Virus record (IMG/VR): IMGVR_UViG_3300036826_000328
Span: 1 to 43,849 of that record
Length of the DNA stretch: 43,849 nucleotides
Origin: a virus
Reading direction: 5' to 3' (one strand)
The first letter of the stretch is position 1, and each line of letters begins with the position of its first letter. The notes under the pieces were generated by a model, which saw only the letters and a program-made list of their open reading frames with translations, did no database searches and was not told where the DNA came from. Below are positions 30,619-41,232 of this stretch, piece by piece. The translations under genes were made by a program, and so were the position numbers.

Positions 30619-30954
30619 TTTCTCCCCCAATCACCCAGAACGGCCGCTGGCATTCCATCGGCCGCCGCGCTATAAGCCCGGCCATCGCCCCCCTCTTTAG
30701 GGCAGGCGGCTTGCCGGTCCTACAGCGCGCATGTGATCCCCAAATCCCAGGCGCTGCGGCTGGCCCGAAATCGCTACCAGCGAGAGCCCCGGCCTTAGCG
30801 CCGGGGCTTTGGTGTCGAGGATCGGGTCCGCAGCCAGAACCCTATTATGGGAAATTCCACAGCGTCAACGACGGCGCCGAACCCGTCGCGCTGGCGTCGT
30901 AGGATGGGGCGCAGGGGGTTGTTTTTGCCGGTATTTGCTGTAAAGAACGGCAGA
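30619..30954. promoter_or_regulatory. Divergent control region between initiator and repressor candidate
   Basis: 336 bp without a convincing ORF. It holds a terminator-like hairpin at 30785-30808 and, just before the repressor ATG, an imperfect palindrome (CCGGTATTT with AAAGAACGG around GCTGT). Candidate -10 elements for the minus operon include TTATAG in GGGCTTATAGCG (30668-30680). No matching -35 is clear. It is the expected site for divergent early promoters. Confidence 0.5.
30785..30808. terminator. Strong hairpin, terminator-like
   Basis: The stem AGCCCCGGC pairs perfectly with GCCGGGGCT (9 bp) across the loop CTTAGC, followed by TTTGG on the plus strand. The T-tract is short, but the stem is very stable. 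It may end a short transcript from the divergent region or insulate the two operons; a small RNA upstream cannot be excluded. Confidence 0.55.
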
Positions 30955-35470: not shown

Positions 35471-37162
35471 ATGATCCGGATCCGCGTCAGGAATTTCCGC
35501 GGCTGTGCGGCGGCCGATATCGACCTCGACCCGGTGGCCTTGGTCGCCGGCAGGAACGCCGCCGGCAAATCCTCGGTGGCGCAGGCGGCGGCCGCCGCCC
35601 TCGTCGGCGACCCGACGATCGCCGGGCTCGCGACCAAGGGCCGGGCGAGCCTCCTGGTGCACGACGGCGCCGCCGCCGGCTCGGTCGAGATCGAGGACCC
35701 GGCCGGGCGGGTGCGCGTCTTGTGGCCCGAGGCCGCGGCTTCCGCCACCGGCATCGCCCCGCAGGCGAGCGCCTATGCCGCCGGCATGATGTCGCTCGCC
35801 GAATTGGCGCCGCGCGACCGCGGCGCCGTCCTCGCCCAGTGCCTCGAAGCTGCCCCCGACCGTGACGATGTGAGCGCGGCGCTCGCCGCGGCCGGGCTCG
35901 GCGAAGAGACGATCGTCGCGGCGGTCTGGCAATTGCTCGAAGACCGCGGCTGGGACCACGCGTTGCAGCTTCGCCGCGACAAGGGCGCCGAGCTCAAAGG
36001 CCAGTGGCGCCAGGTGACGGGGCAGAGCTGGGGCTCGCGGGTCGCGGCGTCATGGCTCCCGGCCGATTGGACGAGCGACCTCGACGACATGACCGCCGAG
36101 CGGCTCGCGGCCGAAAGCGAGGCGGCGAGCCGCAGCCATGACGAGGCGGTCGGAACCCGCGCGGTCTCCGAGGCGCAGCGCCAGCACTGGGCGGCCGAGG
36201 CGGCGAGCCTCGACGAGCGCCGGGATCTGCTGCGCGACGCCGAAGCCGCGGCCGAGCACACAAACACCGAGCTCGAGCAGGCTCAGGCGGCGCGGGCGGC
36301 GTTGCCGGTCGGCGGCACCGGGGCGCCGATGCCGTGCCCGCATTGCGGCGCCCTCGTCGATCTGGTCAAGGTCAACCTGGTCGAAAGCCGTCTCGTCGTC
36401 GCCGAGGCGATTTCGCCGGCGGATCTGAAAGCGCGGCGGCTCCAGATCGCCGAGGCCGATGGCGCCGTGTCGCGGCTCGCCGCCGAGCTCGGCCGGGCCG
36501 ATCGCGCGGTCGAGGCGGCGCGCGCCCGGATGCAGCAGGCGAGCGAGGCGTCGCATCGCCTGGCGCAATTGCCGGCGGGCCCCGCCGCAGCAGCCGATAC
36601 CGCGGCGGCCAAGGATGCGGTCGATCGGGCGCGGGCGCGCGAGCGCGCCTGGCATCAGCGCAACGAGGCCGCCGATCTCTCCGGCAAGATCGCCTCCAAT
36701 GAGGTGCTCCTCAAAATCCTCGCCGGCGACGGGCTGCGGGCGGAAAAGCTCGGCCGCGTCTTGGCCGCGTTCAACGGGGGCCCGCTCGCCGAATTGGCGG
36801 CGGCGGCCGAGTGGCCGGCGGTCGCGGTCGAGCCCGACATGACCGTGACGTTGGGCGGCCGACCGTATCTCCTGTTGTCGAGCTCGGAGCAATACCGGGC
36901 GCGGATCGTGCTGCAGGTGGCGATGGCCGGGCGCGACGGCTCGTCGATGGTGGTGATCGACGCCGCCGACCTCCTCGACGCGCCGTCGCGCTCCGGGCTG
37001 ATGGCATTGCTCGACCGCGCGCAGATGCCGGCCCTCGTCTGCATGACGGCAAGTCGCAAGGACCAGGTGCCCGACCTCGCCCGCGCCGGCCTGGGCCGAA
37101 GCTACTGGCTCGACGCCGGCGCCGCCCAACCGATCGGCGAGCTTGCGGAGGCCGCGGCATGA
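35471..37162 (+). CDS. SMC/RecF/SbcC-like ATPase with zinc-hook
   Basis: A 563-residue protein. The N-terminal Walker A is GRNAAGKSS (27-35). Two Ala/Arg/Glu-rich coiled-coil arms flank a CPHCG zinc-hook near residue 290. The C-terminal half carries the ABC signature-like LLSSSEQYRARIVLQVA and Walker B SMVVIDAADLLD. This is a small SbcC/Rad50-like architecture. With the RecB-like nuclease and the possible annealing protein it forms a recombination/replication-repair module. The signature has S-S-S-E instead of S-G-G-E, which is common in RecF-like phage members. The start lies 6 bp after the previous gene. Confidence 0.87.
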   Translation: MIRIRVRNFRGCAAADIDLDPVALVAGRNAAGKSSVAQAAAAALVGDPTIAGLATKGRASLLVHDGAAAGSVEIEDPAGRVRVLWPEAAASATGIAPQASAYAAGMMSLAELAPRDRGAVLAQCLEAAPDRDDVSAALAAAGLGEETIVAAVWQLLEDRGWDHALQLRRDKGAELKGQWRQVTGQSWGSRVAASWLPADWTSDLDDMTAERLAAESEAASRSHDEAVGTRAVSEAQRQHWAAEAASLDERRDLLRDAEAAAEHTNTELEQAQAARAALPVGGTGAPMPCPHCGALVDLVKVNLVESRLVVAEAISPADLKARRLQIAEADGAVSRLAAELGRADRAVEAARARMQQASEASHRLAQLPAGPAAAADTAAAKDAVDRARARERAWHQRNEAADLSGKIASNEVLLKILAGDGLRAEKLGRVLAAFNGGPLAELAAAAEWPAVAVEPDMTVTLGGRPYLLLSSSEQYRARIVLQVAMAGRDGSSMVVIDAADLLDAPSRSGLMALLDRAQMPALVCMTASRKDQVPDLARAGLGRSYWLDAGAAQPIGELAEAAA

Positions 37163-38553: not shown

Positions 38554-39625
38554 CCGGGGCAAGCTGCGCTGTTATTTGCGCCGCCAGGGCCAGCGCGACA
38601 TCCCGTTGCCGGGAAAGCCGGGATCGCCCGAATTCATGGCCGCCTATCACCAGGCGGTCGCGCAGACACCTCCGCGCCAGACGATCGGGCGGTCGCGGCC
38701 GGGCAGCCTCACGGCGGCGGTTGCCGGCTATTACGAGCATCCGAGCTTTGCGGGGCTCGCCCTGTCGACGCGCGGCATGCGCCGGCGCATCCTCGAAAAA
38801 ATTCGCGCGACGGTCGGGCAGGAGCCGATCGCGGCGTTGACGCGCGGTCATATCACCTCGGTGATCCTCAGCCCGCTCAAGCCGTTCGAGCGCAACAACT
38901 GGCTGAAGACATTGCGCGGATTGATGGCCTATGCGCTCGACGCCGGGCTGATCGACAGCGACCCGACGATCGGGGTCGAGCGCAGCAAGGCGCAGGCCGG
39001 CTCGATCCACACCTGGAGCGAGGCGGAGATCGCGCAATTCGAGGCGCGGCACGGGGTCGGCACCAATGCGCGGCTCGCCTTGGCGCTGCTGCTTTACACC
39101 GCGCAACGCCGGTCCGACGTGGTGCGGATGGGGCCGCAACATATCCGCGACGGCGTGCTCTATGTGCGGCAGAAAAAAACCAAGATGGAAAAAGAGGATC
39201 GGGTGCTGCGCATCCCGGTCCTGCCTGAATTGCAAGCGGTGATCGACGCGACGCCATCGGGCAATCTGACGTTCCTCGTCACGCGCGACGGCAAGCCCTA
39301 CAGCGAAAAAGGGTTTGGCATCCGGTTTGGCGACTGGGTCGATCAGGCCGGGTTGCCGCACGGTTGCTCGGCGCACGGACTGCGCAAGGCGGCGTGCGTG
39401 CGATTGGTCGAGGCCGGGTGCTCGATCAGCGAGGTCCAGGCGATCAGCGGGCATCGCAACATGGCGCAGGTGAAGCCCTATATCGAGGCGGTGAGCCAGG
39501 CCCGGCTGGCTGAAACGGCGATGGCGCGGCTGCGAACAAAAGCCGAAAAAAGTGGTACGGAATCGGCGGCGCCGAACCCCGAAATTGCGAACATCCGCGG
39601 ATCAAAATTGTCTAGCAGGTCGTGA
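38513..39625 (+). CDS. int: Tyrosine integrase
   Basis: A 370-residue protein. The N-terminal part (KLRCYLRRQGQRDIPLPGKP) and the core-binding domain (about 60-160) precede the catalytic domain. Catalytic residues are visible: R199 in YTAQRRSDV, a lysine in QKKTKMEKEDR, H288 and R291 in AHGLRKAACV, H314 in SGHRNMAQV, and Y323 in KPYIEA. This makes it a complete R-K-H-x-x-R-H-Y tyrosine recombinase. The last codons (KLSSRS) run over the first of four TGTCTAGC repeats. It integrates the phage, so the phage is temperate. The ATG is coupled to the preceding small gene. Confidence 0.93.
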   Translation: MRTRLTGIKKYVDNRGKLRCYLRRQGQRDIPLPGKPGSPEFMAAYHQAVAQTPPRQTIGRSRPGSLTAAVAGYYEHPSFAGLALSTRGMRRRILEKIRATVGQEPIAALTRGHITSVILSPLKPFERNNWLKTLRGLMAYALDAGLIDSDPTIGVERSKAQAGSIHTWSEAEIAQFEARHGVGTNARLALALLLYTAQRRSDVVRMGPQHIRDGVLYVRQKKTKMEKEDRVLRIPVLPELQAVIDATPSGNLTFLVTRDGKPYSEKGFGIRFGDWVDQAGLPHGCSAHGLRKAACVRLVEAGCSISEVQAISGHRNMAQVKPYIEAVSQARLAETAMARLRTKAEKSGTESAAPNPEIANIRGSKLSSRS

Positions 39626-39790
39626 AAACCTGTCTAGCACATCAACAAAATCAAAACGATAAGGACACTGTGGCGTCCCCTACCGGACAATGAGCTTCGC
39701 GATTATTCAGCCGGTTGCACTGTCTAGCAGCCCCGGAACGGGCAAAAGCATCCCAGATGCAGCAATGGGTTAGAGGTCGAATGTCTAGCT
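39609..39790. other. Candidate attP with four TGTCTAGC arm sites
   Basis: TGTCTAGC occurs at 39609, 39631, 39721 and 39782. Two copies lie on each side of TGGCGTCCCCTACCGGA (39671-39687). That core closely resembles the 3'-end sequence of many bacterial tRNA genes read on the opposite strand (TGGCGTCCCCTAC-GGGA), the usual bacterial target. Four arm sites around a core, directly after int, is the attP layout. The exact crossover cannot be decided without the host junctions. Confidence 0.65.
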
Positions 39791-39884: not shown

Positions 39885-40088
39885 ATGACCAACCAAATCG
39901 ACGGAACATTCGAGATGCTGAACGGCCGCTGGGTCGTCCGCTGCTATCGCTATGTGCGCGAGGGCGACGCGATCTCGGTCGCCCGCAAGGGCGGCGCGGT
40001 CGAGCGCATCGTCAAAAAGGTGATCGCGGTCGATGGCAAAGGCCGGGTCGGCGGCGGCGGCAAGAGCTATGTTGTGGAGGTGCGGTAG
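39885..40088 (+). CDS. Small early protein downstream of the operator-controlled promoter
   Basis: A 67-residue protein from ATG 39885 with AAGGAGG at 39869-39875. The pattern (FEMLNGRWVVRCYRYVREGD, AISVARKGGAVERIVKKVIA) suggests a small beta-barrel. It is the first gene after the strong promoter and is coupled closely to the next. Function unknown. Confidence 0.72.
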   Translation: MTNQIDGTFEMLNGRWVVRCYRYVREGDAISVARKGGAVERIVKKVIAVDGKGRVGGGGKSYVVEVR

Positions 40089-40340
40089 ATGGACGACGAT
40101 ATCGCGGCCCGGCGGGACGCGGCCGAGGCGGCGCGAGCCGATCTGGGCGACGGCTTTCGCGGCCCGGCCCCGGACATCGACCCACCGAACACCGTCGCGC
40201 TGACACCAAACGGCCGGTATGTGAGACGGCAGCCGGACGGCCGCCTGACGGTCCAGCCGCACAACGACAATTACCTGCTCACCGTCGACACCCTCGACGC
40301 GGCGAAGGGAGCCTATTTCCGGCCGCAGGATTTTCGGTGA
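40089..40340 (+). CDS. Hypothetical small protein
   Basis: An 83-residue protein starting directly after the previous stop, with GGAGGTG in front. The N-terminal charged helix (DDDIAARRDAAEAARADLG) is followed by a likely beta-rich stretch (TPNGRYVRRQPDGRLTVQPH) ending in AYFRPQDFR. The last bases overlap the GTG of the next gene. I do not recognise it. Confidence 0.66.
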   Translation: MDDDIAARRDAAEAARADLGDGFRGPAPDIDPPNTVALTPNGRYVRRQPDGRLTVQPHNDNYLLTVDTLDAAKGAYFRPQDFR

Positions 40341-40705
40341 CCGGCGATATCGCCGCCCTGCTGCGCCGCTGCGGCGAGGCTCTCTACGGGTCGCGCTGGC
40401 AGCACGATTTGAGCCGCGCCCTCGGTGTCTCGGCGCGCGCGGTCCGGCGCTGGACGAGCGGCGAGGACCGGCCGCGGCCCGGGGTGTGGCGCGATCTCGC
40501 CGCGCTCTTGGCCGAGCGCCTCGCGGCGCTCGCCGAATTGCACCGGATCCTCGCCGACGAGCTCGGCGCCGCAAATAAAGACGGCGCCGCCTTTGACCCC
40601 GGCGCCGCAAATAAAGACGGCCCCGATGGGGTTGACCCGCAGCGCGCGCCCGGCGATGATGGCGCTCCCGGCTCCGGCCGGGCCTCATCGAAGCGAGGGA
40701 TCTGA
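40337..40705 (+). CDS. HTH transcription regulator, Cro/YdaS-like
   Basis: A 122-residue protein from a GTG overlapping the previous stop (GTGA). Residues 15-60 (ALYGSRWQHDLSRALGVSAR, AVRRWTSGEDRPRPGVWRDL) are a clear helix-turn-helix of the type that binds phage operators, with W-x-x-D-L-[SA]-x-x-L-x-V-[SD]-x-R-x-V-x-R-W. The C-terminal 60 residues are low complexity and come partly from a 42-bp palindromic element (AANKDGAAFDPGAANKDG) and from the first unit of a hairpin array. It may control the promoter upstream or the lysogeny switch. Confidence 0.8.
   Translation: MTGDIAALLRRCGEALYGSRWQHDLSRALGVSARAVRRWTSGEDRPRPGVWRDLAALLAERLAALAELHRILADELGAANKDGAAFDPGAANKDGPDGVDPQRAPGDDGAPGSGRASSKRGI
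40565..40582. repeat. Half copy of the 42-bp palindromic element
   Basis: GGCGCCGCAAATAAAGAC repeats the right arm of the full copy that follows (40583-40624), giving a tandem arm duplication inside the HTH gene. Confidence 0.75.
40583..40624. repeat. 42-bp palindromic element, copy 5 (in HTH gene)
   Basis: Left arm GGCGCCGCCTTTGACCCCGG, right arm CGCCGCAAATAAAGACGGCCCC. It encodes AAFDPGAANKDGP in the regulator's C-terminal tail. Confidence 0.83.
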
Positions 40706-40836
40706 CGGACGGGCGGTAACGCTCGTTGCGGTTTTCCCGGCCACGGCCGGGCCTCATCGAAGCGAGAGCGAGAGCATTCGCGTGGTCACGCTCGTGTGAT
40801 CGATCCGGCGGCAACCGCCGCCGGCCTCATTGAAGC
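40667..40836. repeat. Three-unit hairpin array, about 70-bp period, with CRISPR-like 3' tails
   Basis: Units at 40667-40697, 40736-40766 and about 40805-40837 each contain a perfect short hairpin (CCCGGC-N4-GCCGGG, CCCGGCC-AC-GGCCGGG, CGGCGG-caac-CGCCG) followed by GGCCTCATCGAAGC or GGCCTCATTGAAGC. Distances between units are 69 and 73 bp. Between units GGTAACGCTCGT and GGTCACGCTCGT are also shared. The tail ATTGAAGC is like the 8-nt handle of type I CRISPR repeats. The hairpin sequences differ between units, so it is not a standard array. No cas gene is present. Confidence 0.6.
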
Positions 40837-40839
40837 CAA

Positions 40840-41232
40840 ATGACGAGCTGGCAGCCGATCGCCCTCTCGGGCAAGCAGAAGAAGGCGGCCGACCGGGTCG
40901 GCGGGGCGGAGCTGATCCTGCCCTGGCCGCCCGGCCTGCCGCCGGGTCCGCCGATCGCGGATGTGAGGGACGCAACGCCGGCGGAGCATGCCGCCGCCGA
41001 GGCGATCGTCGGACCGGCTTGCCATGCCGCCGATTTGGTGCCGGTCCGCTCGACTGTCGCGGTCTTGCGGCGGCCGACCTCGTTCCGGTTGCGGCCGGGG
41101 ACGGTCGAGCCGCATCTGATCGTGCTGGTCATCGGCCGGCGCTGGGTGCACGCCTCGACCCGGCGCGTGCCCGAGCAATGCTGGTATTCGGGAGAGGTCG
41201 AGGAGGCCGCGCCGGCTTTTAAGCCGGAGTGA
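40840..41232 (+). CDS. Hypothetical protein next to the lysis genes
   Basis: A 130-residue protein (MTSWQPIALSGKQKKAADRV...). It has a Pro-rich ILPWPPGLPPGPPIADVRDA segment and HLIVLVIGRRWVHASTRRVPEQCWYSG. The ATG follows directly after the third hairpin unit and has no clear ribosome binding site, so the array could affect its translation. It ends with a 14-bp convergent overlap with the holin-like gene. I do not recognise the family. Confidence 0.6.
   Translation: MTSWQPIALSGKQKKAADRVGGAELILPWPPGLPPGPPIADVRDATPAEHAAAEAIVGPACHAADLVPVRSTVAVLRRPTSFRLRPGTVEPHLIVLVIGRRWVHASTRRVPEQCWYSGEVEEAAPAFKPE

Follow-up and report, generated by a model that had tools for sequence, protein, structure and literature searches.

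Tandem Type I-G CRISPR Repeat Mimics in a Three-Unit Cassette of a Temperate Phage, a Candidate Multi-Unit RNA Anti-CRISPR

Organization of the Cassette

The window analyzed in this study is the whole 43,849-nt stretch of the IMG/VR virus record IMGVR_UViG_3300036826_000328, which belongs to a temperate phage. The following features were found in the cassette and next to it:

39885..40340, + strand: two directly abutting small ORFs (67 and 83 aa) that overlap the start of the HTH gene
40337..40705, + strand: 122-aa HTH protein (HTH_3), a homolog of the one encoded before the units of phage L153
40632..40660, + strand: sigma-70-like promoter TTGACC-17-GATGAT (consensus match only), ending 6 nt before the stem of unit 1
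40663..40694, + strand: unit 1, type I-G repeat mimic; hairpin CCCGGC-TCCG-GCCGGG, CCTC and handle ATCGAAGC; model score 16.1 bits, E 0.013
40695..40731, + strand: spacer-like segment 1, 37 nt; holds GCGGTAACGC and resembles segment 2 (p about 0.01)
40732..40763, + strand: unit 2, type I-G repeat mimic; hairpin CCCGGC-CACG-GCCGGG, CCTC and handle ATCGAAGC; 26.9 bits, E 5.8e-6
40764..40800, + strand: spacer-like segment 2, 37 nt; contains the inverted repeat GCGTG-GT-CACGC and resembles its L153 counterpart
40801..40836, + strand: unit 3, full-length 36-nt type I-G repeat mimic with an 8-bp stem and a perfect CCTCATTGAAGC; 36.7 bits, E 5.2e-9
40840..41232, + strand: 130-aa ORF without a family match; 3 nt lie between the end of unit 3 and its ATG

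The two small ORFs and the HTH gene likely form one operon. Unit 1 coincides with the final codons of the HTH ORF and is thus not wholly intergenic. The product of the 130-aa ORF may be regarded as a candidate accessory or anti-CRISPR protein.

Other repeated sequences were noticed in this region. The low-complexity tail of the HTH ORF includes two 36-bp tandem copies containing GGCGCCGCAAATAAAGACGGC (40552–40623). Four copies of TGTCTAGC within 39609–39789 (39609, 39631, 39721 and 39782, + strand) are located at the end of the integrase gene and beyond, and nowhere else in the window; these are possible arm sites of an integrase or excisionase. A 563-aa ORF was also found at 35471–37162, and its start weakly matches AAA_15 and OLD- and GajA-like ATPases.

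The three-unit hairpin array described in the initial annotation is real. The tail GGCCTCAT, followed by C, C and T in units 1, 2 and 3, respectively, and then by GAAGC, occurs in exactly three copies in the 43.8-kb record (40681–40694, 40750–40763 and 40823–40836), all on the + strand and with no other exact match. Perfect stems of 6, 6 and 8 bp with 4-nt loops lie directly 5' of these copies. The spacings are 69 and 73 bp and the intervening segments are 37 nt long, in agreement with the reported spacing of 69–73 bp and the 35–40 bp of spacer-like DNA. The stems had also been said to differ while remaining paired. This is true of unit 3 compared with units 1 and 2, where several stem pairs and the hairpin length have changed and all the pairs are kept; between units 1 and 2, only the loop is different and the stem is identical. 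The hairpins of both are 4 nt shorter than that of a full-length type I-G repeat.

The 12-base tail CCTCATYGAAGC is expected 0.017 times per window in random sequence of the same first-order composition, and no case of this tail with a 6-bp stem was found in 60 random-sequence trials matched in the same way. A chance origin of the units was rejected based on these trials and on the scores of the bacterial-repeat model described below. No Rfam family reached its cut-off within the window.

In line with the earlier statement that the phage has no cas genes, PADLOC revealed no cas families in the ten larger or cassette-near ORFs of the window, which is a linear record of unstated completeness, and none were revealed in a further selection of window ORFs using PHROGs and Pfam scans. 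The exact motif CCTCATYGAAGC was absent from the terminase relatives of the phage (L225–L245; terminase 65–80% identical), so the cassette is accessory. A model search of eight of these relatives listed no unit at E 0.1. The terminase was also used to look for the phage host among 397 genomes from a single order, the one that includes Rhodoplanes, which gave nothing at the strict cut-off. Relatives of the HTH protein in 297 and 385 genomes (33 loci) had no convincing unit adjoining them, and a short-hairpin unit was not found in 385 genomes of the class of Azospirillum. No relatives of the downstream ORF were found in viral contigs, nor was the cassette DNA found in annotated phages.

Relationship of the Units to Type I-G CRISPR Repeats

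Genomes of bacteria and archaea were scanned for two copies of CCTCATYGAAGC located 42–72 bases apart, which yielded at least 117 loci. Among the loci listed, about 100 are CRISPR arrays with at least three units, and the largest locus contains 93. The bacterial arrays have a period of 71–76 (median 73), and 93% of the periods counted fall within 69–75. Their repeats are 36 nt long and consist of 4–5 nt, a 7–8 bp hairpin closed by CC/GG, CCTC and then ATTGAAGC. A match to the units was thereby found in bacteria at large, so that the refuting condition named in the initial annotation, the lack of a matching repeat in any host, did not come true. The equation of the last eight bases with a known handle was not exact: ATCGAAGC of units 1 and 2 matches ATTGAAAC at six of eight positions, and ATTGAAGC of unit 3 at seven of eight. 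The handle position that is C in units 1 and 2 is T in 1968 of the 1969 bacterial array units.

The subtype of the repeat family was determined from the cas genes of the array-bearing genomes. A fusion of Cas4 and Cas1 adjoins the array of the L046 genome (cas4g_cas1g, 852 bits with a cut-off of 560). Among 36 genomes with such arrays, 27 had Cas4g/Cas1g above the cut-off, compared with none of 14 controls; the family is therefore type I-G. All of the 47 aligned bacterial repeats are fully paired over seven pairs, five of which have changed on both sides, and 60 double-change cells were counted compared with 11.5 in shuffles. A covariance model built from the bacterial repeats alone, with no phage sequences, ranked the window units in the order 3, 2, 1 (scores are given in the list above). 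Unit 3 is thus a full-length member of the family, unit 2 has a shorter hairpin and one change in the handle, and unit 1 is weaker. Unit 1 is convincing only in combination with its neighbors, because a plain GC palindrome at 30787 reaches about the same score. This palindrome (30787–30807) is an isolated GC-rich perfect hairpin, which has a score of 16 bits with the type I-G model and is not followed by a CCTCAT tail. Chromosomal type I-G-like arrays of Azospirillum (L062 and L037) were also observed, in which nearly all repeats differ from each other, unlike other bacterial arrays; these are either decayed arrays or another kind of element.

In the type I-G system of T. sulfidiphilus, Csb2 cleaves the 36-nt repeat at a site 4 nt 3' of the hairpin, so that an 8-nt handle remains, and produces 72-nt crRNAs; it binds the hairpin at 43–55 nM, with no appreciable binding of the handle (PMC9638904). 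This published biochemistry fits the repeat architecture to the base. The window units share with the T. sulfidiphilus repeat the hairpin, the 4 nt, the 8-nt handle and the crRNA unit of about 72 nt. They differ from it in occurring in a phage record with no cas gene detected, and in the shorter hairpins and the ATCGAAGC handles of units 1 and 2. The mimicry of CRISPR repeats suggested in the initial annotation is strongly supported by the bacterial arrays, Cas4g/Cas1g and the covariance model, and it can now be specified as type I-G. The assignment of the units as type I-G repeat mimics is well supported by these comparisons, and their function is inferred.

The Same Layout in an Unrelated Phage

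A similar cassette was found in L153, a 29-kb viral contig. The HTH gene of L153 is homologous to that of the window (40% over 60 aa), and a promoter-like sequence, TTGACT-17-GATAGT, is located near its 3' end, in the same place as the consensus match of the window. Unit 1 of L153 lies at the stop codon of the HTH gene, unit 2 follows 69 bp on and unit 3 another 75 bp on, and then an ORF begins. In unit 3, the handle is changed to GGAGG (Shine-Dalgarno) with an ATG 6 nt later, and the 9-bp hairpin is perfect. Segment 2 is similar in the window and L153 (p 0.0025 in the local comparison; 0/2000 in the global one). The downstream ORFs of the two phages are unrelated to each other, and no other related genes were found between the window and 9.5 kb of L153. 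The shared layout and the similar segment 2, combined with unrelated downstream ORFs and the lack of other related genes, argue for a transferred, selected cassette of an HTH gene, a promoter, three units and an ORF, in which the last gene would be exchangeable.

At about 3750–3830 of L153, near the cassette, the translated text VESSILSGSTI was noticed, which suggests a partial tRNA gene and perhaps an attachment site. ARAGORN found no complete tRNA near the cassette of L153.

Units in Further Phages

Pattern scans and the model revealed units in several other phage contigs. L143 contains three units with spacings of 73 and 71 bp and another unit 577 bp beyond them, L144 contains three (spacings of 74 and 75) and L010 contains two (spacing of 71). 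Two units each were found in L313, which has the near-identical contigs L315 and L329, and in L310, L321, L314 and L357. In L310, TTGACA-16-TATGAT lies just upstream of the units, and a GC stem with a T-rich sequence, uncalled by the terminator scan, lies just after them. In L321, the units are followed by a predicted 13-bp terminator, and in L314 by a terminator-like stem that was seen by eye and not called by the tool. The element of L357 (440–640, − strand) comprises a promoter-like site, a short-hairpin unit, a segment of about 50 nt, a second unit with CCTCAATTGAG and a 13-bp terminator, and it is an apparent stand-alone gene for a phage small RNA. On the whole, the elements of L310, L321 and L357 look like independent small-RNA genes. 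Promoter and terminator assignments in this study rest on consensus matching. Both units of L313 (922–1027) lie between the apparent tail sheath and tail tube genes and are probably carried on a late structural transcript.

In all eight of these phages (L143, L144, L010, L313, L310, L321, L357 and L314), neighboring units differ from each other. The first handle of the two-unit elements L310, L321, L313, L314 and L357 is GAAGC or GAAGT in four of five cases and GAAGG in the other, and the last handle is usually more decayed than the first. This difference should be read as a trend and not as a test, since the sample is small and several loci were found by patterns that fix part of the tail.

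The spacings of 69/73, 69/75, 73/71, 74/75 and 71 share no multiple of 3, and unit 3 of the window is out of frame with units 1 and 2. No reading frame is therefore kept across the phages, and coding repeats, which the initial annotation had named as a refuting observation, were rejected. Beyond the HTH gene and distant integrases, no gene content of note is common to the window and the unit-carrying phages. CCTCATC-type matches in other viral contigs were mostly due to chance or coding, with no stem of at least 6 bp beside them.

Comparison with CRISPR Arrays and Known Systems

The constant period of the window units (69 and 73) resembles that of CRISPR arrays, and 69 represents the short edge of the bacterial range (2 of 1893 periods). 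Adjacent cas genes were not found among the window ORFs scanned, and near-identity of the repeats, a typical feature of CRISPR arrays, is lacking when units 1/2 are compared with unit 3; no single host repeat can be identical to all three. In 100 bacterial arrays, neighboring hairpins are identical in 94% of cases, and the 12-base tail is changed in only 14 of 1878 units. Neighboring phage units differ and yet stay paired, so that their sequence is not preserved by array maintenance and their pairing is retained.

A comparison of 16 phage spacers with 50,697 phages revealed no significant match, only weak ones with E of 1–4. The best self-target beside a TTN PAM was an 8-nt seed match, with 14 matches in all, which is about the chance level. 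Most spacers match nothing, so the lack of a match is weak evidence against guided targeting.

Of the known phage-borne elements, Racr (RacrIF1; Camara-Wilpert et al. 2023, PMC10651486) is similar to the cassette in being a copy of a host repeat carried by a phage, without cas genes and just downstream of a promoter, with an intact stem-loop and cleavage site and a relaxed 5' handle. The Cas6-type stem-loop and its cleavage context are intact in the window units, and the promoter immediately upstream is represented by a consensus match only, as in L153. In contrast to the single unit of Racr, the window has three tandem, mutually different units at array-like spacing within 174 bp; they are also of type I-G, a subtype not named in the main text of PMC10651486. 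The Racr-like solitary unit of the initial suggestion is thus matched in the stem-loop, the cleavage context and the promoter-like site, and not in solitariness. In the Racr survey, full matches within 100 bp were clustered into arrays and dropped, and units with partial flank matches were removed (PMC10651486); owing to this solitary-repeat filter, elements like that of the window were outside its reach.

Virus-borne mini-CRISPR arrays (Medvedeva et al. 2019, PMC6858448; PMC11656645) likewise have two to three repeats, one to two spacers, no cas genes and array-like spacing, but the window repeats are not identical to each other and no spacer target was found. CreTA and CreR (PMC9458426, PMC12737573) share with the window degenerate repeats around a spacer-like segment. 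However, they are described as partners of host CRISPR-Cas loci and have one or two units compared with three, and no toxin or cas promoter target was identified in the window. The cassette is thus like Racr in its proposed action and like a viral mini-array in its looks, and lacks one defining feature of each.

Possible Function of the Cassette

We slightly favor the interpretation that the cassette is a multi-unit RNA anti-CRISPR, in which three tandem type I-G repeat mimics would titrate or mis-assemble Cascade via Csb2. A small RNA with the three mimics would be transcribed from the promoter at the end of the HTH gene. In a type I-G host, each hairpin would be recognized by Csb2, a Cas5-Cas6 fusion, which would cleave the RNA 4 nt 3' of the hairpin into products of crRNA length. 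These products would engage Csb2, Cas7 and possibly the remainder of Cascade but provide no useful guide, and the phage RNA would thereby inhibit type I-G as a multi-unit Racr or as dummy crRNAs. The window units keep the hairpin and CCTC, and their variation falls in the handle; in RacrIF1, the stem-loop is essential and changes in the handle are tolerated, and Racr candidate units are often found immediately downstream of a promoter (PMC10651486).

A pure hairpin decoy would not need a spacing of roughly 72 nt, and the fact that this spacing is kept hints that products of crRNA length matter. Together with the better-kept first handles, it suggests that dummies of crRNA length, and not bare hairpins, may be the products. 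A wider proposal, which we put forward tentatively, is that phages carry tandem "dummy crRNA" genes against type I-G, whose diverged mimics (perhaps avoiding recombination) keep the crRNA length and give useless guides that capture the whole Cascade; the last unit in the window and L153 may, in addition, make downstream translation sense free Csb2.

The same array-like spacing, at or within the bacterial period range and leaving 37-nt spacer-like segments, would also be expected from a Cas-less mini-array or crRNA-guided regulator. Here, the host Csb2 would make two real crRNAs that guide the host's type I-G Cascade to a promoter, a plasmid or a competing phage, in the manner of viral mini-arrays, CreA or CreR. 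The first handles of two-unit elements are better kept, as expected if the first handle alone enters the crRNA, segment 2 is similar in L153, and CreA likewise has diverged repeats around its spacer (PMC9458426). However, the spacers had neither a significant match in phages nor a good TTN-flanked self-target, and viral mini-arrays are described with host-identical repeats and spacers against related viruses (PMC11656645), whereas the window repeats differ from each other. Units 1 and 2 also carry the handle base C, which is seen in 1 of 1969 bacterial units. The mini-array suggested in the initial annotation thus agrees with the spacing and disagrees with the repeats and the spacer searches, and we consider guided targeting rather improbable.

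The position of unit 3, 3 nt before the ATG, could point to a leader in which the binding or cutting of Csb2 at this unit controls translation of the downstream ORF, for example, of an anti-CRISPR protein switched by free Csb2. The Shine-Dalgarno-like handle of L153 beside a still perfect hairpin is consistent with this. However, such a position was seen in the two cassette phages only, and their downstream ORFs are unrelated and have no family match. A general function of this kind is excluded, since several other phage elements have a terminator at their end or lie far from a start codon; for the window, we regard it as unlikely.

A captured host array that has decayed to a relic, or a repeated DNA site for the HTH protein, in either case with no present CRISPR function, would account for the differing repeats and for the small imperfect, operator-like palindromes GCGGTAACGC and GCGTGGTCACGC in the segments, but it is highly improbable given that the stem of every unit is fully paired, that the layout recurs in the unrelated L153, where the HTH gene is a homolog and the promoter-like site has the same position, and that most bacterial relatives of the HTH gene have no units nearby, so that the units cannot be explained as HTH sites alone.

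Few type I CRISPR systems have been studied less than type I-G, and no RNA inhibitor of it is mentioned by name in the two main sources used here. As a multi-unit RNA anti-CRISPR, the cassette is a concrete candidate for which the target enzyme (Csb2), the cleavage site and the controls can all be specified beforehand. Several unrelated phages carry divergent repeat mimics in multiple units. Because filters designed for solitary units remove such elements, the phage CRISPR mimics known so far probably form an incomplete set. The layout of an HTH gene, a promoter, three units and an ORF may also serve as a guide to new anti-CRISPR protein candidates.
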